Assembly (NCBI RefSeq): GCF_900156725.1
Contig: NZ_FTOI01000010.1
Span: 62,001 to 126,000, forward strand
Length of the DNA stretch: 64,000 nt
Source of the DNA: Kaistella chaponensis
Lineage (GTDB): Bacteria > Bacteroidota > Bacteroidia > Flavobacteriales > Weeksellaceae
Direction of reading: 5' to 3'
Shown here: piece after piece, positions 1 to 31,331 of the stretch
How positions within the stretch are numbered: position 1 is the stretch's first letter
Layout: each line of letters begins with the position of its first letter
The notes under the pieces: model-generated
Database searches by the model: none
What the model was told of the DNA's origin: nothing
The model's input: the letters and a program-made list of their open reading frames with translations, nothing else
Position numbers and translations under genes: made by a program

Positions 1-349
1 CCCAGTTAAGTATCGATCTAAATCCCAAACCTTTGTTCCCTATAAATTCTACTCTGTTTTTTGTGGTTAGACCGGGAAACATCAAAGATTTAACCCCTCC
101 TAAACTGAAAGGCTCTCCCTTGTTTGAGACTGTTAGTTTATGCAAATCGATATCTAAAGAAATATAGATGATCTCACTTTTCGCATCATCTGCATTCTGC
201 ATTAATTCAAGAAGCTGCCGACCTTCATAATCAGCTACTGTTTGATTTTCCTGGCGATAGCCGGATAACAAAAAATCTGGATTATCAATATAGGATTTTT
301 TGTATTTAGCAATCAATTTCTTAATTCCATCCTCACTTATTTCTGCCAT
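1..349 (-). CDS. sacsin-like GHKL ATPase, N-terminal part (cut by window edge)
   Basis: The first 116 codons of a larger protein are visible, starting at an ATG 5 bp after the stop of the methylase gene. The residues match a GHKL/HSP90-type ATP-binding fold as found in sacsin-like proteins: an N box LLELMQNADDA (about 46-56), a weak G1 region (NKGEPFS, about 76-82) and a G2 loop GNKGLGFRS (about 104-112). Such ATPases occur in several helicase/methylase defence operons and are thought to couple ATP binding to conformational change. The tight spacing says it is translated with the methylase and helicase. Its C-terminal domains, which would decide the system type, are outside the window. The ATPase fold is well supported; the role is inference from context. 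Confidence 0.8.
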   Translation of the reverse strand, partial: MAEISEDGIKKLIAKYKKSYIDNPDFLLSGYRQENQTVADYEGRQLLELMQNADDAKSEIIYISLDIDLHKLTVSNKGEPFSLGGVKSLMFPGLTTKNRVEFIGNKGLGFRSILNW

Positions 350-354
350 TTATT

Positions 355-3300
355 TTAATCTTTAAATTTTTCTTCAAAATGTGTCCACGCGCGCTTGTAG
401 TCTTCTACGCGGTCGCATTTGGTGAAGGGTGCGTAGTAGGTTACTTTTTCGCCGTGGTAGAGTTCTGATTTGGTGATGGTGTGTTCAAAGGTTTCGCCGG
501 CAGGTAAATCTTTTATTTTTTCCCAATCTGCACGGTCGAGGCCTACGCCAACGAGACCTTTGCTGCAGGTGAATACGATATTTCCTTTTGCATCGTACCA
601 GGTATCGTCTTCATTCTGCTGCAAAACGGGAAACTGGATGTTATACATTAAGATTAATTCGTCTAAGTTCAGGTTTAAAGCCATTGCGGTAATTACATCA
701 ATTTCTACCAAAGCTTGCCTGCGCTCAAAATAGTTGCGCAGCGGTGTATCCCACGACCATTCTTGAGCGAGGGACTCAAAAGGTTTCAAGCGCTTATCTA
801 TAAGTGACCATGTACTTCTTCTAAATTCGTATTTAAACATCTGATTCCATATTGTTTTGTACGAATCATTAATAAAGTTTAGTTGCATAGTCCTTTTTAG
901 TAATTCCTGTTCAATCCAAAGGGGTACTTCTGGTAAGGGAAGGTTTTCGATTACGCTTTGACTTATCTTAGCAACAGACAAGGTTTTGACAATAAAATCA
1001 TAAACGATCGAGTGGGATAAGCCCGAAAATAAAATTAGGTCCTTATCAAACTCTAATACTAAAGATGTCGCCGCTTGAATATGTGAACTATATTCAGGAA
1101 TTATGGAAGTTTGAAAAGTTCTTTCTCCTGCCTGATTTAGTAGTGAAGGAAATAACAACTTAAGCTTTTTTAACCAGTTATTATCATCGGAATTAACTGG
1201 TTGCATGAAAAAATCCACAAGTTCAAAATTTGTCCGAGGCTTAAAATCAGAACGAAGGCGAGGTACATCGATGATATCGTAATGTGATTTATCTGTACAT
1301 TTTTCTCGTGGGTTTTTATATAAAGGATTTGCAACGTAGAATTGTGGACCACTATAAATTAGCTGAAAATTATTTTCCGGATACTTCGTTATTTTTCTTA
1401 ATTTACCTTTTTTAATATCATTCGTTTCATGCCAACATTCACTTACTTGGAATTTTTTATCCTTAATCCTAATTCCGATTTTCGCAATTTTGTCAATTAC
1501 CGGAATTAAGTTTACATTATGAATTGATAAAAGCTTAGGAGAATCAGCATTTGAACCACTAAATTTACCTAGAATTTCTAAGGACGACTGTGCAATGTGC
1601 ACAATACGGTCCGAGTGCCCTGTAACATTCCACTCATATGCTCCTATACTGTTTTTGAATTTTAAACCGTGACAGATTTCTAAACCATTATAAGCAAAAG
1701 AACTCTCAATGGTAAACGGGTGAAAAATATTATTAATATTTATGAAATCGCAATCACTCATCTTACCAGCATATATGTTTATTCCATATTTTGATCTATG
1801 AGCTACTTCAGCAAATAGATTAAAGGCATTCTGAAACTGGAAATGAAATTTTAGTCTTTTATAGATTTCCTTACGCAACTTTTCAGCATTAGGATCATCG
1901 TAAATTCCTTCAGGATGTATCAAACCTAAAAAACCCTTTTCAGAGATCCAGTGCAAACCGTTTTCCAACACGCATTTGTAAAGATTAGTTTGTTGCCCCT
2001 TGAGTAGCGGATAATTCTGGTAGGCATTCATAAAAACAGCTGATGCTTCGTGTTCTATATTCTCGGTAAAATAAATGTTTCTTCTGTCTTCCTGCAGTAA
2101 GAAATCTGACTGTAATTTCTTTACCTGCGGCGCGGTGACCTTGCGTATTTCAAGCTCCGGATAGATTTCTGACATCAGGCCTTTTTCCTCAAACACAATC
2201 TTCAGCCAAGGCGGATTTCCGACTGCGATATCAAAACCGTTGCGTTCGCGGAAGACTTCAATAAATTCCAGCTCATAATGGAAGTAGCGGTACTGGTCGG
2301 CATACTTCTTCACCAAGAGCGCGCGTTCATTTTCGAATAATGAGGAGGGCGACTGTTTTAAAGCGGCGATCAGCTGCTGCTCAATTTCTTTTTTGTCTTT
2401 GCGGTAATCGCGCACCGTTTCGTCTACCTCTACCTCTTCATCTGCAGTTTTATTTACGGCCAAGTCAATGTTGAGAATCTGGACGATATCTTCGTACCAC
2501 TGGGTGCGGGTGGGCAAATCTTTGGCATCGCGCACATCCCAGAACCATAAACTGCACCAGTAATCCATGATCTGTTTCAGTTTGTAATAGGGTGCATTGG
2601 GCTTCAGGCGCTCGCGGGCAAACTGCTGCTTTTTTTCGTAGGAATATTCCTGAAAATCGAGGGCAGAAACTTCGGCGGGAATCCCAAAGAAGTCGCTTCT
2701 GACTTCGGTAATCAAGGCAATGTTTTTCTGTATGGCATAATGCTCCATCAATAAAGCATCAATGGCAGCGGAGATTTTCTGCAGCAGATTATATTCGTCT
2801 TTGCGTACCGGAGAACAGAATTCTTTGCGCCATTCGGTTACTCGTTTGGCTTCATCGGTGTAAGCATCTTTCAGTAATTTAATATTCCCTGAAGCTGCCA
2901 TGCCGGGATCGGGTAAGAGGAAATGGTAAATTTCGTCCTCTTTGCGCAGGATGCCTTTTTTGCTGAACTGCAAATGTTTGGGCGCGGTGCTCCACCATTC
3001 TTTCTTTACCCAACCTTTTCCTTTCGGTTCGAATGAAAATTCTTTATGCTTAAAAACCTTCAGCCAGGAGCCTACCACGGCATTTCCTACGCCCAACCGG
3101 TAGCCAAAGAAAGGGGTCTGCATGTCCTTGTGGATCACATTGAGCCAAAGTGACAGCTTGCCCAGTTCCACCGCTGTAGGATTTAAATCGACGCCATAGA
3201 CATTGTTCAGGGCGATGTGTGCTTTTATTTTCTGAAGTTCTTCCTGGTATTTATTAGGATCTACCCGGGTTTTCAGTTCCTGCTGGCTATATGTAAGGTA

Positions 3301-5118
3301 GGCCTGCGCCAACTGGTTAATCACCTCGTTGTGGAAAGCCGCGGCACCCATGGCAGGTTCCAGTATTTTCAGATCCAGCAAATCCAAGGCTTTGATCTCG
3401 CCCTTTTCCAACCGTTCCAGGATTGGTTTCAAGGTGTATTTTACGGTGGTCTGCGTTAATACTTCCGGGGTGTAATAAGAGGCGGATTTTTGGCGGTCGC
3501 GGCCACTGAGTCGGTAAATAAACCGACCGCGCGGGATGACTTTCATTTCTTCAGAGCCATCTGCTTTCTGATCTTTATAGATTTCACTGTCGTGAAAATC
3601 ATCAAGGCGTTCGCGGGGTACGAGGTAAGAACCATCAGTTCTCGTTACTTTTTCTGAAGACTCGTCCTTTTTGCGTTTGCGGTGTACTTCGATATAATCT
3701 GTTTTGGCTAGAAAACCGCGGAAAGCCAAGAGACTTTCATACACGGAACCCAACTGGTTTATGCCTAAGTTGGCATAGGATATCCGGCCTCTGCTTTTTC
3801 TGTTCTGTTTTTTGGAGAGGGACAGTTCACAGATCACATCCTGCCAAACTGCGTTTCTGATCTGAACATCCTGTAAGTAATTCAGATTTGCGCCTTCGAA
3901 CATGGGTGAATCCAAATGGCGGATTTTGAAACTTTTTGTCTGCCCTTCCTGTTCTTTATATCCCTTGTTTAACAGTTCAAATAACTGAAACAAAGATTTA
4001 TGAAAAAAATATCCGTTCCTACTTGATTCCGTAATTAAGGGCACCTGTTCCAAATCACGAAGCATCTCCAGGGAATAGCCGCGTTCGTACACATCGTCGT
4101 TGGAAGGTAAGATGTCGAGATCTTCACGGGATTCGGCATAAAACAGAAATAAAAGGCGATAGACCATGTTCAGGCAATCGTCTTTGAGGCGGTTGGCATC
4201 AATGTCATCATAAGCATAACCCTGCTGCACCAAATCGTGGACGGCTTCGTTGGCGAGATTTTCCACCGCATTGATGACTCCTTCCTTTAAATCCTGTGTT
4301 ACCTGATATGCTGCTTTGTGGGCATCTTCGTCCAGCTGTTCCATCAGCACCATATCGGCAGTGGGTGCCAAAAGATCTTTGCCCAGGAGGAGATAAAAGA
4401 CCGCGTAGTAATCTTTGAGTATCGCCGCATCATCAAAAAGCGCTTCGAGATCGAGCTCCAGATAGGAACCCCGGAACCATTTTTCGGATTCCAACAGAAA
4501 ATATTTATTGCCACCGCACAACAAAATGTATTTCGGCCGCCTGTTCAGCGGCAATAAGAACAATTCATTGATGGCCTGATTGATGATCATCGGTGAGATG
4601 CTGACGCCCTCCGGCACGGTAAATACATCAGCCCACTGGGAGCGGTGATATTTCTGTTCTTTGGCTGTTCTGTCTTCCGGATCATGGGCAATATTGTAGC
4701 TCTGCTCGAAGAGTCCATCCGGTTCTTCGTCGGAAGTTTTAATTAAGGCGTGCATTTCCATAACCATGAGGTGCGGAGTGGTGCCACGGTATAAGATATG
4801 ACGGACAGGCAATACTGCCTTATCGCTGATGGGATACAGTTCGGTGTAGTTGTTTTGCGCAGCATTGTAACCTAACGCATTCAGGATCTTTGTGTGAAAG
4901 TCGTGCGAGAGATTGATTTTATCTTTGGTTCGCAGGTGATTTTCGATGAAGCGCTGCTTGAGTTTGAAATAGTCTGGCTTTATGCGAGCGACGGCCTGGC
5001 TGAATGTTTTAACCGCATCGCTGCTGCAACCGGATTTGTCGATAACTTTTTTAGAGAAATCTTCATCGAAATAATTGGACGCAAAATAATCTCCTATGTT
5101 GTTAATGAAGTGAATCAT
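355..5118 (-). CDS. large Eco57I/DrmMI-type adenine-specific DNA methyltransferase
   Basis: This 1587-aa protein is an N6-adenine DNA methylase of the large type found in BREX (PglX), DISARM (DrmMI) and related defence systems. The sequence shows a motif-X-like KSASYYTPEVL stretch ahead of motif I (EPAMGAAAF, about 585-593), a VDLNPTAVELGKLSLW segment and the catalytic motif IV NPPW at about 967-970. The region after motif IV (about 1000-1500) is long and should contain the target-recognition domain. The first 550 residues are a conserved-looking helical region with one short stretch (HLMVMEMHALIK, about residue 115) that could be mistaken for a nuclease core, but no convincing PD-(D/E)XK set is seen. 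The gene lies 11 bp after the helicase and 5 bp before the ATPase, so the three form one operon. It most likely marks self DNA. A type IIG enzyme acting alone is less likely given the partners. Confidence 0.85.
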   Translation of the reverse strand: MIHFINNIGDYFASNYFDEDFSKKVIDKSGCSSDAVKTFSQAVARIKPDYFKLKQRFIENHLRTKDKINLSHDFHTKILNALGYNAAQNNYTELYPISDKAVLPVRHILYRGTTPHLMVMEMHALIKTSDEEPDGLFEQSYNIAHDPEDRTAKEQKYHRSQWADVFTVPEGVSISPMIINQAINELFLLPLNRRPKYILLCGGNKYFLLESEKWFRGSYLELDLEALFDDAAILKDYYAVFYLLLGKDLLAPTADMVLMEQLDEDAHKAAYQVTQDLKEGVINAVENLANEAVHDLVQQGYAYDDIDANRLKDDCLNMVYRLLFLFYAESREDLDILPSNDDVYERGYSLEMLRDLEQVPLITESSRNGYFFHKSLFQLFELLNKGYKEQEGQTKSFKIRHLDSPMFEGANLNYLQDVQIRNAVWQDVICELSLSKKQNRKSRGRISYANLGINQLGSVYESLLAFRGFLAKTDYIEVHRKRKKDESSEKVTRTDGSYLVPRERLDDFHDSEIYKDQKADGSEEMKVIPRGRFIYRLSGRDRQKSASYYTPEVLTQTTVKYTLKPILERLEKGEIKALDLLDLKILEPAMGAAAFHNEVINQLAQAYLTYSQQELKTRVDPNKYQEELQKIKAHIALNNVYGVDLNPTAVELGKLSLWLNVIHKDMQTPFFGYRLGVGNAVVGSWLKVFKHKEFSFEPKGKGWVKKEWWSTAPKHLQFSKKGILRKEDEIYHFLLPDPGMAASGNIKLLKDAYTDEAKRVTEWRKEFCSPVRKDEYNLLQKISAAIDALLMEHYAIQKNIALITEVRSDFFGIPAEVSALDFQEYSYEKKQQFARERLKPNAPYYKLKQIMDYWCSLWFWDVRDAKDLPTRTQWYEDIVQILNIDLAVNKTADEEVEVDETVRDYRKDKKEIEQQLIAALKQSPSSLFENERALLVKKYADQYRYFHYELEFIEVFRERNGFDIAVGNPPWLKIVFEEKGLMSEIYPELEIRKVTAPQVKKLQSDFLLQEDRRNIYFTENIEHEASAVFMNAYQNYPLLKGQQTNLYKCVLENGLHWISEKGFLGLIHPEGIYDDPNAEKLRKEIYKRLKFHFQFQNAFNLFAEVAHRSKYGINIYAGKMSDCDFININNIFHPFTIESSFAYNGLEICHGLKFKNSIGAYEWNVTGHSDRIVHIAQSSLEILGKFSGSNADSPKLLSIHNVNLIPVIDKIAKIGIRIKDKKFQVSECWHETNDIKKGKLRKITKYPENNFQLIYSGPQFYVANPLYKNPREKCTDKSHYDIIDVPRLRSDFKPRTNFELVDFFMQPVNSDDNNWLKKLKLLFPSLLNQAGERTFQTSIIPEYSSHIQAATSLVLEFDKDLILFSGLSHSIVYDFIVKTLSVAKISQSVIENLPLPEVPLWIEQELLKRTMQLNFINDSYKTIWNQMFKYEFRRSTWSLIDKRLKPFESLAQEWSWDTPLRNYFERRQALVEIDVITAMALNLNLDELILMYNIQFPVLQQNEDDTWYDAKGNIVFTCSKGLVGVGLDRADWEKIKDLPAGETFEHTITKSELYHGEKVTYYAPFTKCDRVEDYKRAWTHFEEKFKD

Positions 5119-5129
5119 ATAATCTGCTA

Positions 5130-8009
5130 CTAATGGTTATAAAAAACAGCGAGTACTTTGAGGTATGGATCACCGTTGAGACTGGTCAGGTTCTTAAAAT
5201 ACTGACTTGAACTGTTTAAAATGGTTTCTATTTCAAACTCTTTGTCCAGTTTTCTTTTTTTAATAAAACCGTACTCCGGTGTGTCCCCAAACTCCAATTC
5301 CATCTGCTGAACTTTGCTTGTATGCCAGTTTTTAATTTTTTCCTCATAAATGGCCAGTTTCTTTTCCATTTCAAACTGCAGTTTTTGCTGCTCCTGGTCC
5401 ATATGCAGCTGGTGGGCAAATTCTATAACCTGTGGTAGAAGTTCCTGCAGCAAAGAAATATCCTGATCAGAAACCGCCATTGTATGCAGTTCTTGAGTTA
5501 GGTTATAGGCTGTGAGAAACTCTTCGAAAGGGATAGGTTTGTTATCCATTCCACCATCTATTTTCATCTGTATGACAAAGAAGTCTGACAATACGGACTG
5601 GCCGAGATTGTTGGCTACGATACCCTGGATAAGAAAAAATGCTGAGTTTTGTGGTAACCTCGTAAGTTTGTTAACCAAGGCGACATCTTTGTCAACAGAA
5701 GCTTCCAGCTGTGTCATGAGATACCGCACGACGGGATGCAATTCATAGAGCATGTGAAACCTGGCCCATTCTCCTTTTTTCTTGCGCGCATTTTCAATGG
5801 CTTTCTGAACATCGTCCTTATTCAGTGATAACTGATACACTTCGCCGAATTTAGAAGGTTTGGCCTCCTTCGGTAAATCATATAAAATACGGTCGATTTC
5901 CTTTGTATGTTTAACCTCTAACAAATCGCCTTCAAAGAGAGCATCGTCATTTTTAAGGTAGTGATCTGTTTTGAGCTGCTGAATAAGCGCTTCGTAGTAT
6001 GCTTTATCATTTTCAAATAATGAAAATGAAGGCATAATGGGTTCCGCAACTTTTAATTTCGGAGTTGCATCGTCAAATAAAGAATCAAAGAAGTCATCAC
6101 TTACACTGTCCGGCAATGCGGCCTCTACCAGATCTGCATTATTGGTTGCCAACGCCTTGGTAATTAACTCTTCTTCCGCTGTTGCATCGTACAGCTTATA
6201 AACAGAAGCGGCATCGCCCAAGGACTGATATACTGTTTCTTCTTTTTCTTTTAGCTTGTTTACGATGTGGAGATCGTCTTTTAATCCCTCCAAATCAGAT
6301 TTGGCAATTAGGTAATGGATATATGGCGTTTTAGTCTGGCCGTATCGATCAATACGACCATTGCGCTGCTCTAATGTAATTAATGACCACGGGATGTCGT
6401 AGTTAAACATGTGGTTGCAGTAGTAATGCAAGTTTACTCCCTGAGAGCCCGCGTCTGAAGTAAGTAAAATACGATAATCCGAATCCGCTTTTCCAAAATC
6501 TTCAATAATGCGCTGCTGTTCCATGTCGGTTAACGATCCATGAAAATCTGCAATTACATTGTCTTCCAAACCAAAATCAGCGGTCAGTTTTCGTTTCAAG
6601 GATTTTAAGGTTTCAATGCGTTCAGCAAACACCACAATCCGAAAATCCTTCTTGCGCCCATTCCAGTTCAAGCGAATCAGTTCGTTTTTTAAGGCATTGT
6701 ATTTTGCATCTTTTTTACCGGAGATAATTGTTTGCAGTTTCGATTTTAACTGTTGAAGAATTTCGATATTATCCTCCACCAGATCATCCAGATTATTCAG
6801 TGCTTCCAGCTTACGGATTCTATTTTCAACAGAAGTGAAAGCTGCTTCCGGAGAAGACATGTAAGACTTGAATAAACCTATGGCGAATAATAAATCTTTT
6901 TTTGGTTTTTTCAGCGTCTTTCTGCCAAACAGATCGGTCTGCAAGTCTGCCTCCTCCAACCTGGCTAAGGCATTGAATTTAATTTTTTGCTGCTGTTCCA
7001 GAAACTCATTTTCAGCGTCGGTTAATTCTGCGTGAATCGATACTATTTTCCGCTCCTGGAAGTTGGAACGCACGGCTTCATCATCAATGTCATTTTTGAA
7101 CCGGCGAACATAGTAGGGTAAAATATCCTGCTGGGTGTAGTTCTGTTCGTCTCTGATCGCCAAGGGTTCGATCATGTTAATCAGATTGGCGAAATTCTGC
7201 TTCTTACCATTGTGAGGAGTAGCAGAAGTAAGCACCAAAGATTCGCACTTGGTGCTTAATAACTGGGCCAAACTACCGCGGAGCGAATTGCTGTTCGCTA
7301 CGGTATGACATTCATCAATTACAATGATGTCCCAACGCGTGTTTTCTATATAATGCTGGAATTTAGCATTGTTCTTGAGTGTGTCGATTGAAACAATCGT
7401 CTTATCGTAATAGTCGAAAGGGTTTTTGTTCGCAGGAAGTTCTGCTTTAATTTTGGAAATCCCCTCTGAATCCAGACGGACTAAAGGAATCGCAAAACGA
7501 TTCCATATTTCCTGTTGGAACTGCCCCAAAATAGATTTCAAGGCCAGTACCATGATGCGTTTGCCTTTACCTCTCTTTATCATTTCTGATAAGAAAATGC
7601 CGACTTCAACGGTTTTACCCAATCCAACGCCATCGGCAATTAAAATTCGTGGACGTGGCAACTGGAAAGCTTTGAGTGTGGGTTCTAACTGGTAATTGGC
7701 GAGATTGAAAGCTGCTTTGTGTGCTATGGTTATCTGCTCACTGTACACCGAGGCATTCCTGATCTGATTTTCAATAAACAGTTTGGTTTTACGGTAGCCG
7801 TAATCTGTATCGGGAACCAAGCGTGTATGTTTGGGATCCAGAACGCGTATTGAAGAATCTATTTGAGTGTCAAAAATGAAAGTTTTCCCTTTTACTAATT
7901 CGGAGATCCCTTCTACCTTCAGTATATAATTACCATTGTTGTCTTCTATGTCGTTTATAATAAAGTCCTCGTCACGATTTGTGATCCGTTGGCCTGGGGT
8001 GAAATTCAT
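5130..8009 (-). CDS. SNF2-family DNA helicase (DrmD-like)
   Basis: This 959-aa protein is a two-lobe SNF2 ATPase. Walker A reads GVGLGKT (about 125-131), motif II is DECH (about 231-234), motif III is TSATPHNG, and the second lobe ends with QRNGRIDRYGQ (about 543-553), the usual motif VI. The C-terminal 350 residues are charged and helical and may bind the partner proteins. In DISARM class 1 a helicase of this kind (DrmD) sits next to the adenine methylase DrmMI, as here, but no DrmA, DrmB or DrmC follows within the window; a GHKL ATPase follows instead. It is the first gene of the operon. A weak -7-like box (TATCTTTA, minus strand, 8102-8109) lies about 90 bp upstream. Translocation on foreign DNA is the expected activity. 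Confidence 0.85.
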   Translation of the reverse strand: MNFTPGQRITNRDEDFIINDIEDNNGNYILKVEGISELVKGKTFIFDTQIDSSIRVLDPKHTRLVPDTDYGYRKTKLFIENQIRNASVYSEQITIAHKAAFNLANYQLEPTLKAFQLPRPRILIADGVGLGKTVEVGIFLSEMIKRGKGKRIMVLALKSILGQFQQEIWNRFAIPLVRLDSEGISKIKAELPANKNPFDYYDKTIVSIDTLKNNAKFQHYIENTRWDIIVIDECHTVANSNSLRGSLAQLLSTKCESLVLTSATPHNGKKQNFANLINMIEPLAIRDEQNYTQQDILPYYVRRFKNDIDDEAVRSNFQERKIVSIHAELTDAENEFLEQQQKIKFNALARLEEADLQTDLFGRKTLKKPKKDLLFAIGLFKSYMSSPEAAFTSVENRIRKLEALNNLDDLVEDNIEILQQLKSKLQTIISGKKDAKYNALKNELIRLNWNGRKKDFRIVVFAERIETLKSLKRKLTADFGLEDNVIADFHGSLTDMEQQRIIEDFGKADSDYRILLTSDAGSQGVNLHYYCNHMFNYDIPWSLITLEQRNGRIDRYGQTKTPYIHYLIAKSDLEGLKDDLHIVNKLKEKEETVYQSLGDAASVYKLYDATAEEELITKALATNNADLVEAALPDSVSDDFFDSLFDDATPKLKVAEPIMPSFSLFENDKAYYEALIQQLKTDHYLKNDDALFEGDLLEVKHTKEIDRILYDLPKEAKPSKFGEVYQLSLNKDDVQKAIENARKKKGEWARFHMLYELHPVVRYLMTQLEASVDKDVALVNKLTRLPQNSAFFLIQGIVANNLGQSVLSDFFVIQMKIDGGMDNKPIPFEEFLTAYNLTQELHTMAVSDQDISLLQELLPQVIEFAHQLHMDQEQQKLQFEMEKKLAIYEEKIKNWHTSKVQQMELEFGDTPEYGFIKKRKLDKEFEIETILNSSSQYFKNLTSLNGDPYLKVLAVFYNH

Positions 8010-16036: not shown

Positions 16037-18442
16037 TTAGTCTGATTTAATATATTGGTCAATTGCGCTTTCCATATTTCCAGTTTCGTGATAAATCTTC
16101 ATCAGTTCCTCATTTTTAGCCCCTTCGGTTTGGTATGCCCAAAAAACTTTTTCCGGAACTTCTAAACGGTAAACCTGATGTTGATTACCTCTCATAATGA
16201 AGACTTCCGAATATTTATGTTGCCCCTCAAAATCTGATGTTAGAGAACTCATTTGATGGTAAGCATGATCACTCATTCCGAACCTGTTCTGTAAAGCCGA
16301 ATAATCCTTTGCGTTTAAAACATAAAGAACTTGCGTATTTTCGATAATTGTCTTCGCAATTTGACCAAACTCTCCGCTGTCCGGGAGTTGACTTATTGCC
16401 TGCAGTACGATTCCAATTGCACCATTTTGCTTTCGAACTGCTTGAAAGAAATATTCTATTTTTTCCAAAACGCCTTTGAACTTAAACTGCTTGGCAACTT
16501 CATCAAAGAAAATATACCCTTTGGTAGATTTATCTTTCCATACTGTTTCATTTATTACAGATGATATTAGCTGCAACATAATAGAAAGTAGGAGAGGATT
16601 GTCTTTGACTTCATCCAGTTCAAAAACAATAATTTTTTTGTCTTTTACCCTGGTTAAATTATCATTGCTTTCATCAGCATATAGAAAATCATAAATACCG
16701 CCTTTCTCAAATTCGCTCATGGCAAATAAAAACTCTTCAATATTGAAAAATTCATTTCTGATATTTAACTCTGGAAGTAAGGTGTCTTTATTTTCTCGTA
16801 TGGCTTGAATAAATTTTAAGAGACTTTGCTCACCATCTTGAATAAAATAAGCCTCAATAATTTTCCTAAGGGCGGTTTTTTCGTTTTCCGTCGCTTTAGA
16901 ATCTCTTTTGTAGTGAGTAATAACGAATTCTGTTAAATCCTCAATTTTTGAAGCTGTTAATTCCTCACCTTGCAAATCGAATGGGTTTAAACCAATTGGT
17001 TCGCCTTCTTTATAATGAATAAATACAGTGTCTATTGGATATAGTGCAGAAAGTTTACGGTAAGATCCTCCTAAATCCACTAAAACTACTCTTGCTCCTT
17101 GTTCATAGTATTGGCGAAATAAATGATTGGCTAAAAATGATTTCCCATAACCAGTCGGTGCAAAAATCATAAAATTTCTGGCTCTTACATATTTCTTTTC
17201 TTCATCCCAGGTATCTACAATTACTGGTATGTTTGCTATACGGGAATTAAGCAGCACCCCTTTTTTATCATTCTTATAATTAGTACAATTATTAAAAAAT
17301 AAGGTGGCTAAACTTAAATTCCCATAAAACATTTGTTTTTCAGAAAAATTAGCGGAAAACAAATAGAAGGAATTGCAAAAAACGGAATTAAGAAAATTTC
17401 CGATCGGTTGTCTGGTCTTAATATCTACTGACTTAAACCGCTCTGTAATTTGATTTCTTCTGTTCTTAATCTCGTTTTCATTGTCACCATAAAAAAGAAT
17501 ATTAAAATGGCCTCTTATAATTCTTTCACTATCGATATCCGTTGCGATACTTTCTATCAATGTTTCTAGTTTTCCGGCGTTTACTTTATTATTAGGATCA
17601 AAGGTGGACGACTTTTTTAACAGATCTTGCCTTTTCCTCAGACTGCTTAACTCATTCTGATTATCTTCAAAATAAATAACCTGATTATAAGCGTGGTCGA
17701 AATCCAACGAAAAGCCAAATAGATCACCAATGTTTTGATAAAACTTATATTTTGCAGTGGTAAAATCTTTATCAATTTGTAAAGATGAAAAACTCTCCGG
17801 CATATGTTCTTCATCTCTCGTACAGATGGCTCCTAATAGTCGATCTCCAATTTGCATATAGCCATTTTTCAAAACCCTGTCAGTAACGAAGTCGTTTTGG
17901 AAATTATTAAAATAGTAATCATAGTAATTTCTCATTTCTTCCGATTCCAGTTCTCGAATTTGAAAAGCTCTTCCACTATTAATTTTTCCATTGCTAAGAA
18001 AATTAATGATCTGCTCTACGGTATTGATAAAGGCATTTATTTTATCATCAAACTTTTCAAAATTTTTTCGATTTAATCTTTTAAAGGGATTGGTTATTTT
18101 ACTGGTAAAAGTATCTCCGGCAGGTAGAATAAAGAAAACAAAGCACTTGTGTGACAGGAAAGGCCTTTTATGAAAATAGGCCTTCGTTTCTTTTTGTAAA
18201 TAATTTTCCTGCAGGAAATTATTCGTGTCAAATTCAGACTCCTGAAAAATATCCTGTTTAAGAAATATAGAACCAGATGGCATATCCTTTAAAGCTCTGT
18301 TCCATAAATCATTCACAGATTCATAATCCTCTTGACCCATCGAATATTTTTCAATCAAGTCAAACTCGTAGCCCATTGCAAATGCGCCATTTGTTCCCAC
18401 AACTTTATTGGTATCGATATGTAAAAATAAATTATTCATCAT
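16037..18442 (-). CDS. traG: TraG / VirB4-like conjugation ATPase
   Basis: The protein (801 aa from 18442) has the Walker A APTGYGKS (about 427-434) and Walker B with GYIFFDEVAKQ (about 640-650). The N-terminal 350 residues carry the VirB4 family domain. It should sit on the cytoplasmic face and power pilus assembly and transfer. The ATG-ATG pair at 18442/18439 lies inside the last codons of the VirB3-like gene and is a better start than the TTG further upstream. VirB3-VirB4 overlap like this is common because the two proteins are made together. Confidence 0.9.
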   Translation of the reverse strand: MMNNLFLHIDTNKVVGTNGAFAMGYEFDLIEKYSMGQEDYESVNDLWNRALKDMPSGSIFLKQDIFQESEFDTNNFLQENYLQKETKAYFHKRPFLSHKCFVFFILPAGDTFTSKITNPFKRLNRKNFEKFDDKINAFINTVEQIINFLSNGKINSGRAFQIRELESEEMRNYYDYYFNNFQNDFVTDRVLKNGYMQIGDRLLGAICTRDEEHMPESFSSLQIDKDFTTAKYKFYQNIGDLFGFSLDFDHAYNQVIYFEDNQNELSSLRKRQDLLKKSSTFDPNNKVNAGKLETLIESIATDIDSERIIRGHFNILFYGDNENEIKNRRNQITERFKSVDIKTRQPIGNFLNSVFCNSFYLFSANFSEKQMFYGNLSLATLFFNNCTNYKNDKKGVLLNSRIANIPVIVDTWDEEKKYVRARNFMIFAPTGYGKSFLANHLFRQYYEQGARVVLVDLGGSYRKLSALYPIDTVFIHYKEGEPIGLNPFDLQGEELTASKIEDLTEFVITHYKRDSKATENEKTALRKIIEAYFIQDGEQSLLKFIQAIRENKDTLLPELNIRNEFFNIEEFLFAMSEFEKGGIYDFLYADESNDNLTRVKDKKIIVFELDEVKDNPLLLSIMLQLISSVINETVWKDKSTKGYIFFDEVAKQFKFKGVLEKIEYFFQAVRKQNGAIGIVLQAISQLPDSGEFGQIAKTIIENTQVLYVLNAKDYSALQNRFGMSDHAYHQMSSLTSDFEGQHKYSEVFIMRGNQHQVYRLEVPEKVFWAYQTEGAKNEELMKIYHETGNMESAIDQYIKSD

Positions 18443-18695
18443 CTGAAAATTTTTCAGGGAGTTTCTCGTCAAAGAGCCATTCTTTGATGGTGGAATTATT
18501 CGTCAGCAGAAGCGCAGTAAAATACGTGACGGCAATAACGAGCGTCACCACTATAATTTTTTTAATGGTAAAACCTCCTAAAAAGGTTAAAAGAGCGAGT
18601 ATTGAAATGATAGCGGTTACTAGAAAGCCCGTAGTGTTTAGTCCGTAAATTGTAGGTCGTTGACGATATCCTTTTAGATTCTTTACTTTCCTCAA
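18432..18695 (-). CDS. traF: TraF / VirB3-like membrane protein (DUF4133)
   Basis: 87 aa with two closely spaced membrane helices (about 21-40 and 44-62) after a basic N-terminus, and an acidic tail. Size, layout and place between the pilin-like gene and VirB4 match TraF/VirB3. No ATG is available in frame near the start, so the TTG at 18695 is used. The 3' end overlaps the VirB4-like start by 8-11 bp. Confidence 0.78.
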   Translation of the reverse strand: MRKVKNLKGYRQRPTIYGLNTTGFLVTAIISILALLTFLGGFTIKKIIVVTLVIAVTYFTALLLTNNSTIKEWLFDEKLPEKFSDDE

Positions 18696-19081: not shown

Positions 19082-20725
19082 TTAATCTAGAATATTTCTT
19101 GCTTCCCGAAGTATTTTTTCGAAATGAGCATCTAACATTTTTTGAGTGATGACCTTTTGATTTTCAAATTTCTCAGTTACAATTCGAGGGTGAATAATAT
19201 TAACAATTTCATTCTTCCCATCGGAAAGAAAAGCGAACTCACCCACGCTAAGTCTATTAAACTCATTGGCTCTGTGTTTGTGAACTTCTCTTTCTCCGGT
19301 TGTCGTAGAAGTCTCACCCCACGCCAACAAATTGCCATCGCCCCCTTTTTTTGAAACCGACTTGGTTTTGATATTAACCATTTCAAAATAGCTTTCATAA
19401 AATTTCGATGTTTCTGAATCATTTGATTTTCCAAAAAACTGAGTAGAGAGATTGGCAACAATTTCTTTAAAACCATCTCTGCCATACTGAACAACTCCCT
19501 GAACAAAATCCTGCGCACAGTAAACCACTACAACACCAAAACTTCTCATCGTAGCGGGAATCTGTGCCATATTAAGAAGCTTAATTGTTGGTGCTTCGTC
19601 AAGTAAAATAAAACTGGGTTTCCGATCTCGCACCATCATCTGTTTAGAAATGGTGTGAATAATTGTAGCATTTATAGGGCTTAAAAATTCAGCAGATCTA
19701 GGTTCATTAATGACTGAAACCACAAAATTATTTTGGGCAGTATTAATATTGAGATCGAAATCACTACCACTTAAAATCCAGAACGCTTCAGGGAATGCAA
19801 TTTTTCTAAGAGCATTCGCTAGCGTCGAAATTACAGAAGCAGTTTGTTTTGCAGAAGCAAGTCCCAAGATAAAAGTACTTCCTTGAATGGCAACACGCTC
19901 ATTGGACGTAAGAAACTCTTTAAGTTTTGCAAACTTATCCATTGCATCATCACCTAAACCGGATCGCGGATTTTGAACGCTAAAATCAACACCAAGTATA
20001 AAAGCAATAACGTGGGGTAGGGTACATAATTCCTTATGATCGAAAGTAAATTTCAAGATAACTCCTGCTAATAAAGAAGAGGCACTATCTTTAAAAAAAT
20101 CATCTCCTTTTCCAACTCCATTTTTAATTAAATTGTCAATAATGACTTTTACAATTTGATTGACATCTTTTTCCCCTTTGATATAATCAGGTGAAATAGG
20201 ATTTACACGACTGCTCGAGTTAGGATTATGCAAGGCTATTACTTTTAATCTTTCTTTGAAAATCGCCTTTGCTAATTCTGTAAGCTCTCCATTTTTGAAA
20301 TCATAAATAATCCCTGCAAAGTCGGCTTTGCCAAAATGAATCATCAAATTATAAATAATAGAAATCGTTTTACCAGAACCTGCGGCACCAAAAACTGCAA
20401 TTCCACGCTGAATGCCCCGAATAATTCTTTTGCCCTGGGAAGTATTGAATTCAACATCCCAAAGTGGATCTGCTTTTTTTTCGAAAGTCCATAAATAAAT
20501 AAGACCACTAATGATAAGACTGGGAACGATAAGGTAAAGCAGAATGAAGATAAAATTCCCTAATTTAAAACTGCCAAAAACGACTAACCCTACCAAAAAA
20601 AGGAGAAGGATACATTTAAATTTTTTGCTTTTTGATTTAAATGCAATCGTAAAAAGGAAACTTACTACCGCAATTCCTACAATAATAATTAACCAATTTC
20701 TTAAAGTAAGATCTAGAATTTTCAT
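19082..20725 (-). CDS. VirD4/TraD-type coupling ATPase
   Basis: 547 aa with two to three N-terminal membrane helices (about 1-75), Walker A GAAGSGKT (about 112-119) and Walker B PSFILLDEAPT. The C-terminal half shows the coupling-protein phrases RSFGVVVVYCAQDFVQ and STQFFGKSNDSETSKFYES. It recruits the relaxase-DNA complex to the secretion channel and pumps DNA. The ATG at 20725 starts one base after the relaxase stop and has AAAGGA about 7 bp upstream, so it is preferred over the earlier start at 20749 that would overlap the relaxase. Confidence 0.88.
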   Translation of the reverse strand: MKILDLTLRNWLIIIVGIAVVSFLFTIAFKSKSKKFKCILLLFLVGLVVFGSFKLGNFIFILLYLIVPSLIISGLIYLWTFEKKADPLWDVEFNTSQGKRIIRGIQRGIAVFGAAGSGKTISIIYNLMIHFGKADFAGIIYDFKNGELTELAKAIFKERLKVIALHNPNSSSRVNPISPDYIKGEKDVNQIVKVIIDNLIKNGVGKGDDFFKDSASSLLAGVILKFTFDHKELCTLPHVIAFILGVDFSVQNPRSGLGDDAMDKFAKLKEFLTSNERVAIQGSTFILGLASAKQTASVISTLANALRKIAFPEAFWILSGSDFDLNINTAQNNFVVSVINEPRSAEFLSPINATIIHTISKQMMVRDRKPSFILLDEAPTIKLLNMAQIPATMRSFGVVVVYCAQDFVQGVVQYGRDGFKEIVANLSTQFFGKSNDSETSKFYESYFEMVNIKTKSVSKKGGDGNLLAWGETSTTTGEREVHKHRANEFNRLSVGEFAFLSDGKNEIVNIIHPRIVTEKFENQKVITQKMLDAHFEKILREARNILD

Positions 20726-20726
20726 A

Positions 20727-22127
20727 TTAATATCCTTTTGAAACATCACTAATTTTAGTTATTACTGACTTTATAGTTTTAACTGCAATTTCTAATGGAG
20801 TTTTAGGAATACTTAAAGGCACTCGGAAACCAAGTTCTTTGCTGATGGTACTATTAAGATTTAATTTTTGTAGTTCATACAGACCTGAATTTCTATACAA
20901 TTCATTTTTTATCGGTTTCGTAATCGCTGAACTAAATCCTTTTCCTAAATTTTCTATGCGTACTTTTTTCCCTGTTCGAATCTTTTTCTGCTCATTAAAT
21001 TTCTGATAACTTTGAGTGCGATCGTATCTAAACTTTTGATCAAAATTCAGTTCTACCTTCTTGAAAAATTGATCCCTATTAAATCCAACCTGTGCACTCT
21101 TTCCTGCTACTTTTGAATTTCGATGATTTGCTAAAGGGGATATAGACCCTTTATATCTTGCATTAGGACAGTTGTCATATCTAGAAACGATGACGTGAAT
21201 ATGATACTGCTGACCACCTTTTTTTAATCCTTCTCTCACAATTTCACCAGTGGTTCTATCCTTATGCAACTTAGATTTTAATTCGTCTACTTTACCACTA
21301 TTATTACCTTTTTCAGATTCTAACAATTTTATTTCCCTATTAATTTTCCTATTATCACTAACCCATTTATCATTTGCTTTATAAGTTCTCTGCTCTTCAA
21401 CTTTAGCGACCCATACCAAATCCTTATCCGTCATTTTTCTCACTGATAAATCTTTGCCTAATTCCGCCGCTTTCTGTTCGCGAATCATCTGAAATTTTTG
21501 AGCGTATTCAGGATCTTTGCGATTAATTCCTAATCGTTCAAGTTCATTTTTTGTTTCGCTATTAATTTGAACTTCTTCCCTACGATTGGGGAGCTGATCA
21601 GGATTAGAATAAACATCACGATTGAAATTATCTGCATATTCTTTCATTACCTCTTTTGCGTACTCACGTAAACATTGATGCATTAAATCATTCTTTATCA
21701 GTTCTAATTGCTGCTCTCCTTTTACAGTTTGATTCAAAATATCAATTTCCTTTTGGTTGAATCCATTGGACTTTAATTCCAAATCAATAATCTGATTTAA
21801 ATGTTCAAGTTCTTCTTTACTTGGAGAAATATTTAAAATAAAAAATTTGCTTTCGCTTTCTTTTGCTCTTGAGGAAAAATTTTTGTCAATTAAATCTGTG
21901 GCAGTATTTTGATCTAAATATTTCTCATCATCAATTTCATCCGTCGTAAAAAATAAGTTTTGCTTCTCAATTTGTTTGTCGAATTCTGACAGTTTATGGC
22001 TCTGAAATTCATCCATGAAATTTTCAAATTCTTTCTCTCTAGATGAATTTTCTTTTTCCAAATATTCTGTCACCGCTTTACAACTTTGTGAAATCTCTGG
22101 GTTGTGTTTTGTAAAAGAAATATGCAT
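20727..22127 (-). CDS. mobB: MobB-type relaxase (BtgB/DUF5712 family)
   Basis: 466 aa. A conserved N-terminus (MHISFTKHNPEISQSCKAV) is followed by a long charged helical part and a catalytic-looking HIH block in GQQYHIHVIVSRYDNC (about 300-315). This is the histidine pair with which relaxases of this group hold the metal ion. Downstream RYKGSISPLANHRNSKVAGK completes the family look. It should nick oriT and stay bound to the transferred strand. Its ATG overlaps the stop of the accessory gene by one base (TAATG). The tyrosine used for nicking cannot be picked with certainty. Good confidence in relaxase, moderate in family number. Confidence 0.8.
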   Translation of the reverse strand: MHISFTKHNPEISQSCKAVTEYLEKENSSREKEFENFMDEFQSHKLSEFDKQIEKQNLFFTTDEIDDEKYLDQNTATDLIDKNFSSRAKESESKFFILNISPSKEELEHLNQIIDLELKSNGFNQKEIDILNQTVKGEQQLELIKNDLMHQCLREYAKEVMKEYADNFNRDVYSNPDQLPNRREEVQINSETKNELERLGINRKDPEYAQKFQMIREQKAAELGKDLSVRKMTDKDLVWVAKVEEQRTYKANDKWVSDNRKINREIKLLESEKGNNSGKVDELKSKLHKDRTTGEIVREGLKKGGQQYHIHVIVSRYDNCPNARYKGSISPLANHRNSKVAGKSAQVGFNRDQFFKKVELNFDQKFRYDRTQSYQKFNEQKKIRTGKKVRIENLGKGFSSAITKPIKNELYRNSGLYELQKLNLNSTISKELGFRVPLSIPKTPLEIAVKTIKSVITKISDVSKGY

Positions 22128-30069: not shown

Positions 30070-31331
30070 GTCAAAAATAGTTGGTAAAATTCTTTGTATT
30101 GCCTATTATTACTGATGATACAGAAAGTTTATTGAACTTTGTTTCAATAAACTTTTTTTATGACTGAAAATTTAAAAAAAATCGTTGTTGGAGTTGTAAA
30201 AGTCTGGATGTGATTTCCTGGGGAAAGCAAAATGGTAAACGGCGTTTTAAATGTAAAAATTGTGGCATTTATTTTACTGCGGAAAATAAATCTGTGGGTT
30301 TGAAAAACAAAGAAATTTGGTTCAAAAAATGGATTATTGGAAAACAAACTTATGAGCAGATTTCAGCAGAATCGGGATATTCGGTTAGCACTCTTCAACG
30401 GTATTTTAATGTGATGCTTGTAAAAGCTCCAAAACTCAGTTACAGCCAGAACAAAGAGGTTTATTTGCTGATTGATGGTACTTATTTTTCCAATGAAATC
30501 TGTTTGGTTGTATATAGAGACAATGTTTTTAAACAAACCCAACTTTACAGAATTACTGACGGAGAGCATTATGAAGAACTAAAAGAGGATTTGGAAAACA
30601 TTCTGAATTTAGGAATAAAAATTGGCGGTATAACCTGCGATGGCGACAAGTCTTTATTGAAAGCAATCCGTAAAGTTTGTCCGAAAGTTCCTGTTCAGAG
30701 ATGTTTGGTTCATATTCAGAGGATGTGCAAAATATGGCTTTCTGCTTATCCAAAGTCTGTAGCTGGTTTTGAGTTGCGTGAAATTGTCTGCAAACTTCAT
30801 TTTATTGATAGTGAAGTTAAAAAGCAATATTGGATCAAAGAATTTTTGGACTGGTTTGAGAAGCATAAAGACTTTCTGAATGAAAAATCCTACAGTCTGG
30901 AAACCGGAAGATATTGGTACACCCATAAAATGGTGAGAAGATGTTTTTCTGTTATCAGAAAGGCTTTACCAAATATGTTTACTTTCCTGCAAAATCATAA
31001 AATCCCAAAAACAACCAATGGAATAGAGTCTTTTTTTGGTCATTTGAAAGGCAATCTAAATATTCATCGAGGGCTTACCAAAAGTCGGAGAAAAAAGTTT
31101 ATTCAATGGTATCTTTTTTATAAAAATCTAAAGTCGTAAAAGGTTTTTTTAGCCATAAAGCTGTTCCAATAATTTACTAAAAAAGGATGGCAAAAACCAT
31201 CCCTCTAAACTATTGTTTACAGCGCTGATTGTATTGCTGGTAAGTTGCTCCTCAGCATTGCTTACTTCCTCTTCCAATCAACCGCCAAATATTACGAATT
31301 ATTTTTGTGAAAAACACCAACTATTTTTGAC
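30070..31331 (+). mobile_element. insertion sequence of the IS256 type (variant zinc-binding), about 1.26 kb
   Basis: The left end GTCAAAAATAGTTGGT (30070-30085) is repeated exactly, inverted, at the right end (31316-31331). Between them lies one transposase gene, a left-side hairpin (about 30124-30152, GTTTATTGAA/TTCAATAAAC) and a right-side hairpin GGATGG/CCATCC (31185-31202). The true tips may reach a few bases further out, since a weaker match (GGT...) continues on both sides. Target duplication was not identified. It separates the stress cluster from the core chromosome part. Confidence 0.75.
30160..31139 (+). CDS. transposase, IS256-like with N-terminal zinc ribbon
   Basis: The main open frame (about 310 aa from a GTG at 30210) has the acidic residues of a DDE enzyme: D in LLIDGTYF, D in ITCDGDKS with the C/H pair QRCLVHIQR, and E in TNGIESFFGHLKGN. 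The zinc-ribbon half CKNC is inside the frame, but its partner CWSC (NRCWSCKSLD) lies upstream at about 30187-30204 with no start codon of its own. An ATG at 30160 (MTENLKK) is one frame away, separated by a run of eight As. A -1 shift on this run joins both parts. Either slippage makes the full protein or the copy has lost one A. Coordinates cover the joined gene. Confidence 0.75.

Follow-up and report, generated by a model that had tools for sequence, protein, structure and literature searches.

ARMADA is a recently described anti-phage operon that was tested in E. coli and, according to the main text of the preprint, has a strict gene order (PMC12458937). Its type II form, as presented there, is composed of ArmA (BrxHII-like), ArmB (PglX-like), ArmC (YprA-like with a Vsr nuclease), and ArmD (RelE-GajB), and the E. 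coli system functions with these four genes (PMC12458937). Related components occur in DISARM class 1, which consists of DrmD, DrmMI, DrmA, DrmB, and DrmC. Tiamat (TmtA) is filed as a single-gene system and reportedly acted as one in the original study. Hma combines, by its name, a helicase, a methylase, and an ATPase, the latter of a non-GHKL, DUF499 type. The methyltransferase of Hma is an m5C enzyme (PMC8565338). Extra effectors can also be attached to restriction systems: PrrC is kept inactive by the type I R-M enzyme to which it is linked and is switched on by a phage anti-restriction factor (PMC2610378), and a repertoire of auxiliary or back-up effectors embedded in BREX operons, as well as the recruitment of PARIS to BREX, is described in PMC12839542.

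The window analyzed here, a stretch of 64,000 nucleotides from a 3.04-Mb Kaistella genome (contig C19:62001-126000, window base 1 being C19:62001), begins within a defense operon (Table 1). An earlier note on this DNA had read from it a DrmD-like SNF2 helicase and a DrmMI-like adenine methylase followed 5 bp later by a sacsin-like GHKL ATPase, and all three were recovered as minus-strand ORFs with PADLOC and Pfam matches. Three long ORFs that run in one direction and match their families over the full length cannot plausibly be put down to chance. The ORF ends were set mechanically. The remainder of the operon lies to the left of the window, as had been anticipated, where the GHKL gene is completed and followed by ArmC and ArmD. 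In the ORF map the genes are closely packed, with spacings of 11 bp (ArmA-ArmB), 5 bp (ArmB-GHKL), and 6 bp (GHKL-ArmC) and a 4-bp overlap of ArmC and ArmD. It is the presence of ArmC and ArmD that identifies the operon which, the GHKL gene aside, is by sequence an ARMADA type II with the composition ArmA-B-C-D.

Table 1. Coordinates of the Kaistella ARMADA operon, its surroundings, and inserts in related loci (C19, contig; L numbers, loci).
Feature	Location	Strand	Length	Basis
ArmA, BrxHII/RapA/DrmD-type SNF2 helicase	window 5130-8009	minus	959 aa	ORF, PADLOC, Pfam, E. coli ArmA comparison
ArmB, PglX/YeeA-type N6-adenine methyltransferase	window 355-5118	minus	1587 aa	ORF, PADLOC, Pfam, E. 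coli ArmB comparison
GHKL ATPase-nuclease, start	window 2-349	minus	first 116 aa of 1526	frame runs out of window
GHKL ATPase-nuclease (TmtA/Tiamat family), remainder	C19:57769-62000 (complete gene L003:769-5349)		1526 aa	
ArmC, YprA-family DEAD/DUF1998 helicase with C-terminal Vsr-like nuclease	C19:51481-57762 = L002:9481-15762		2093 aa	
ArmD, RelE-UvrD helicase	C19:49391-51484 = L002:7391-9484		697 aa	
180-aa ORF, HTH protein, 144-aa SecB-like protein, 3' of ArmD	C19:47816-49260 = L002:5816-7260			
Plasmid-like mobile region	C19:38268-92210 (L162:16268 to window 31139)			by eye
VirB4-like ATPase	window 16037-18472			by eye
Coupling protein	window 19082-20749			by eye
Relaxase-like ORF	window 20727-22127			by eye
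Transposase copies	L162:2-568; window 30210-31139			by eye
AbiEi/AbiEii	B-C slot, L058 and relatives			PADLOC
Zorya II	B-C slot, L110; related genes in L117, L118			PADLOC
Zorya I	B-C slot, L113			PADLOC
Avs4	B-C slot, L077			PADLOC, 1208 bits
PsyrT (PsyrTA)	B-C slot, L124			PADLOC
AbiLi (AbiL)	B-C slot, L088; relative in L115			PADLOC
ZacB	B-C slot, L095			PADLOC
Iet, Bunzi, Mokosh-like proteins	B-C slot inserts			weaker PADLOC matches
SoFic	A-B junction, L057; relatives in L082, L096			PADLOC
GHKL gene split into three frames, Gelidibacter algens	L068:13368-17965			
TmtA-type GHKL genes between HsdS and HsdR	L031:7859-12298; L171:7936-12366			Hsd names by eye

The assignment is carried by direct comparison with an E. 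coli ARMADA II locus (L160), against which ArmA, ArmB, ArmC, and ArmD score 504, 827, 736, and 409 bits, respectively, with 34% identity for ArmA and a nearly full-length match for ArmD. All eight of the residues reported as mutated in PMC12458937 align to an identical residue here, namely Walker A K132 and Walker B D232 of ArmA, G591 (GxG) and N968 (NPPW) of ArmB, which align with G605 and N971 of the E. coli protein, K108 and D238 of ArmC, and K259 and D444 of ArmD. Domain matches include the Pfam SNF2-rel_dom and Helicase_C families in ArmA, a full-length REase_MTase_IIG match (PDLC03614, 1593 bits) and the Pfam Eco57I domain in ArmB, Pfam MZB in ArmC, and Pfam UvrD together with PADLOC GajB in ArmD. 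The Vsr-like C-terminus of ArmC is conserved across 54 sequences (E1683, D1747, D1774-G1775, H1779, D1790, R1794, and zinc cysteines), and the N-terminus of ArmD keeps RelE-like residues across 43 sequences, as judged by eye. The operon and the ARMADA type II of E. coli NCTC 12900 have in common the four core proteins and their order, the RelE-UvrD form of ArmD, the Vsr-like nuclease of ArmC, and the eight catalytic residues. They differ in that the E. coli operon is without a GHKL gene, whereas here a GHKL-nuclease gene splits the B-C junction, so that the four core genes follow one another in the usual order but not without a break.

PADLOC 2.0.0, which is older than the description of ARMADA, matches the ArmA and ArmB genes to the models of DrmD (294 bits, the best match of ArmA), HmaA (197 bits), and DrmMI (189 bits), and on these matches the operon could be taken for an Hma system, as the earlier note had considered, or for a variant of DISARM class 1. 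Either identity is highly improbable. Hma is ruled out by the methylase, which is of the adenine (Eco57I) type with an NPPW motif as opposed to m5C (PMC8565338), and by the missing matches to HmaB and HmaC; beyond the helicase, the Hma models find no counterpart in the operon. The SNF2 helicase and the methylase are homologous to those of DISARM class 1 and the YprA-family helicase is distantly so, but when read to its end the operon continues with the GHKL gene, a YprA helicase that is one fused protein and itself carries a nuclease, and the RelE-UvrD gene in place of DrmA, DrmB, and DrmC, and there is no DrmC-like nuclease gene downstream of the DUF1998 helicase. Druantia was rejected for that helicase, for which PADLOC favors DruE3 (330 bits), because in direct comparison it scores 736 bits with E. 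coli ArmC versus 96 bits with the neighboring E. coli DruE3. PglZ and BrxC gave no PADLOC match among the operon proteins. The view that the locus is neither DISARM nor BREX is therefore borne out, while the proposed Hma membership has to be abandoned, and the ATPase, which could have proved to be an unrelated short protein, is a full-length TmtA. The idea of a helicase-methylase-ATPase unit survives in part, in that this is a defense operon with those three genes but the GHKL gene is an optional insert and not a core component. The presence of a nuclease, which had been left to the sequence beyond position 1, is settled by two predicted nucleases, one in ArmC and one in the GHKL protein.

The operon is located inside a plasmid-like mobile region, annotated by eye. 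The left part of this region has genes for a serine resolvase, a Rep-like protein, and ParA, the right part carries the VirB4-like ATPase and the coupling protein and, further along, the relaxase-like ORF and tra-like genes, and copies of one transposase are found outside it at both ends. In the set of genes that follows ArmD, the HTH protein and the 144-aa SecB-like protein match the PADLOC candidate PDC-M64C, and together with the 180-aa ORF they look like a toxin-antitoxin-chaperone module.

The GHKL protein matches TmtA over the full length of the model (PDLC03964, 992 bits, positions 7-1536 of 1538), with a sub-threshold match to Pfam SACS (E 9e-6, under the gathering score). Motifs and folds were analyzed for the two ends of the protein, up to about residue 450 and from about residue 1200. 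At the head, the N-box (ELMQNADD) and GNKGLGFRS are invariant in 11 relatives, and the AlphaFold model (pLDDT 80) has an Hsp90/TRAP1/GyrB fold with a best E of about 1e-9. In the C-terminal domain, a DUF3883-like PD-(D/E)xK tail, a glutamate, HYD, and (E/D)-V-K make up an invariant pattern. The model of this domain (pLDDT 76) is nearest to the Hjc resolvases of archaea, a group of PD-(D/E)xK nucleases, although this match is modest (E 2.4e-3, TM 0.62 to target). From the GHKL motifs, the Hsp90-like head, and the Hjc-like tail, we predict that this member of the Tiamat (TmtA) family is a nuclease gated by ATP. The head, the tail, and the full-length match are common to this protein and Tiamat, but the gene here is not a stand-alone one, being separated from ArmB by 5 bp and from ArmC by 6 bp, and it belongs to a clade that is confined to ARMADA operons within the sample. 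A search of genome contigs with the GHKL protein alone gave no match, probably due to the fast divergence of the protein. With plasmids, tblastn with the GHKL protein found only distant relatives, many of them annotated as DUF3883, a scan of viral contigs found two relatives, neither beside ARMADA genes, and a class-level PADLOC search returned no additional non-ARMADA homologues.

The position of the GHKL gene was assessed in relatives of the Kaistella operon. From an ArmB alignment search of 84,980 species genomes, the best-scoring 80 of 455 confirmed ArmB relatives were taken with their flanks, their ORFs were mapped, loci broken off at their ends were extended, and the junctions were scored for inserts of at least 1 kb; the resulting frequencies apply to these relatives, mostly Bacteroidota, and not to ARMADA at large. 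Such an insert is present at ArmB-ArmC in 45 of 62 scorable loci and lacking in 17, compared with 10 of 68 at ArmA-ArmB and none of 44 at ArmC-ArmD, where the largest gap is 98 bp (B-C versus C-D, Fisher 4e-16). Nearly all of the slot ORFs of at least 150 aa (122 of 127) are on the operon strand. PADLOC, applied to representatives, identified several complete known defense systems among the inserts (Table 1), and 18 of the 62 loci have a GHKL protein in the B-C slot, with four or more families represented. Traced on the ArmB tree, the slot switches occupant 35 times or more. Sister loci can be unlike, with GHKL in L049 but an empty slot in L050 and with GHKL in L057 but AbiE in L096. The insertion slot and its turnover are thus evident from the sequences themselves. 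Of 518 E. coli genomes that match the junction, 514 have it unbroken, five E. coli loci followed over their whole length consist of A-B-C-D alone, and nested genes or a B-C slot go unmentioned in the main text of the ARMADA preprint (PMC12458937). Given the 45 of 62 related loci (from the best 80 of 455) with an insert, an uninterrupted B-C junction is an unsound defining feature of ARMADA type II outside E. coli. Close relatives of the Kaistella operon (L050, L051, L052, and L084) have no insert, which makes the GHKL gene dispensable for ARMADA, and its location at an exchangeable spot suggests that the operon carries interchangeable back-up weapons.

Several inserts are of interest in their own right. 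Members of a second GHKL family (1.7-1.9 kaa; L053, L057, L060, L082, L089, and L097) each precede a partner of 581-599 aa that is weakly similar to Mokosh (MkoA), and the pair is apparently an unnamed two-gene defense candidate. In three Bacteroidales loci (L078, L086, and L093) a third GHKL-bearing protein of 2.0-2.4 kaa is accompanied by a partner of roughly 700 aa, the C-terminus of which resembles that of ArmC in L078 and L086. A block of genes of 850, 389, and 540-640 aa that recurs in L063, L100, and L101, with a UvrD-like middle gene and otherwise almost no PADLOC match, is a candidate for an unknown defense system. In Gelidibacter algens the ARMADA-borne GHKL gene is split into three frames between Arm genes that look intact, suggesting that the cargo can decay independently of ARMADA.

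The variety of unrelated complete systems in the slot and the rapid change of occupant on the ArmB tree are what one would expect if B-C were simply a safe recombination site in a co-transcribed operon and the GHKL protein, as a Tiamat, defended independently, sharing only a promoter and a mobile element with ARMADA; TmtA-type proteins are also found alone or near other systems. We consider this explanation unlikely, although it deserves to be kept in view, as it has to accommodate inserts that occur at B-C but never at C-D (0 of 44 loci from the best 80 of 455 relatives), that are nearly all co-oriented, and that include four recurring GHKL families in 18 of 62 of these loci even though no more than about 1% of the sampled genomes have a close relative of PDLC03964. 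It must also accommodate the confinement of one lineage, GHKL-alpha, to ARMADA within the sample, with a sister lineage that is mostly in type I R-M. Nine ARMADA operons contain GHKL-alpha, eight among the 62 loci from the best 80 of 455 relatives plus that of Kaistella, which against the genome frequency of about 1% is not chance. The eight intact ARMADA-borne proteins on which the clade rests group together with support of 100/99 against seven homologues from elsewhere. Within our sample, GHKL-alpha is by these comparisons dedicated to ARMADA, but ARMADA is independent of it.

In the sister clade, two members (L031 and L171) sit inside type I R-M operons with HsdS on one side and HsdR on the other, one (L034) is just upstream of HsdM, and one (L032) is apart, the Hsd names having been assigned by eye from protein sequence and gene order. 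In ARMADA and in the two R-M operons alike, the gene follows that for modification and precedes that for the restriction translocase, and TmtA-type GHKL proteins may be accessories of R-M systems in general. Some GHKL ATPases, MutL and MORC among them, work as DNA clamps. This activity, the shared gene position, and the 5-6 bp spacings, which suggest coupled translation, could also mean that the GHKL-nuclease joins the ARMADA restriction complex as an alternative effector or clamp that alters the cleavage mode or DNA recognition. Such a role is quite improbable in our view, given that 17 of 62 loci (from the best 80 of 455 relatives) are without an insert of at least 1 kb, that others have unrelated systems in the slot, and that four genes suffice for ARMADA in E. 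coli in the published account (PMC12458937).

We tentatively propose instead, with confidence just short of evenly balanced, that the GHKL protein is an optional, ARMADA-dedicated back-up effector residing in an exchangeable cargo slot of a restriction-like ARMADA type II operon. The core would be a methylation-guided restriction system in which ArmB methylates host DNA, ArmA and ArmC translocate along unmarked phage DNA, the Vsr domain of ArmC cuts it, and ArmD contributes UvrD/RelE activity. The GHKL protein would be co-expressed with ARMADA and silent while ARMADA works or an infection signal is absent. If a phage inhibits or escapes the core, the Hsp90-like head would close on ATP and license the C-terminal nuclease to destroy DNA, a guard function analogous to that of PrrC for type I R-M and PARIS for BREX. 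Like PrrC (PMC2610378) and the effectors described in PMC12839542, this is an optional effector gene nested in or linked to core restriction genes, but those belong to other host operons, and in the present case there is one strongly preferred junction (B-C) and a role that is only predicted. If Tiamat does act as a single gene, the GHKL protein could defend alone, and the guard role is likewise weakened by a clade of eight proteins, the close relatives without an insert, and the modest C-terminal fold match. A broader version is possible but on the doubtful side, in which the B-C slot of ARMADA type II is a dedicated, exchangeable second-line armory and a lineage of GHKL-nucleases has become a specialized guard of ARMADA, alongside a sister lineage that is encoded between HsdS and HsdR and has this role for type I R-M.

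ARMADA was tested in E. coli, a species in which very few loci have an interruption at B-C, but the sampled relatives, mostly Bacteroidota, often hold whole known defense systems there. If the slot is functional, ARMADA would be a platform, and the unknown genes in the slot would be strong candidates for new defense systems in what amounts to a ready-made discovery screen. The ARMADA-dedicated GHKL-nuclease offers a direct way to test the idea that nested effectors stand guard and are set off by a phage that disables the outer operon, which is a general question on layered bacterial immunity.
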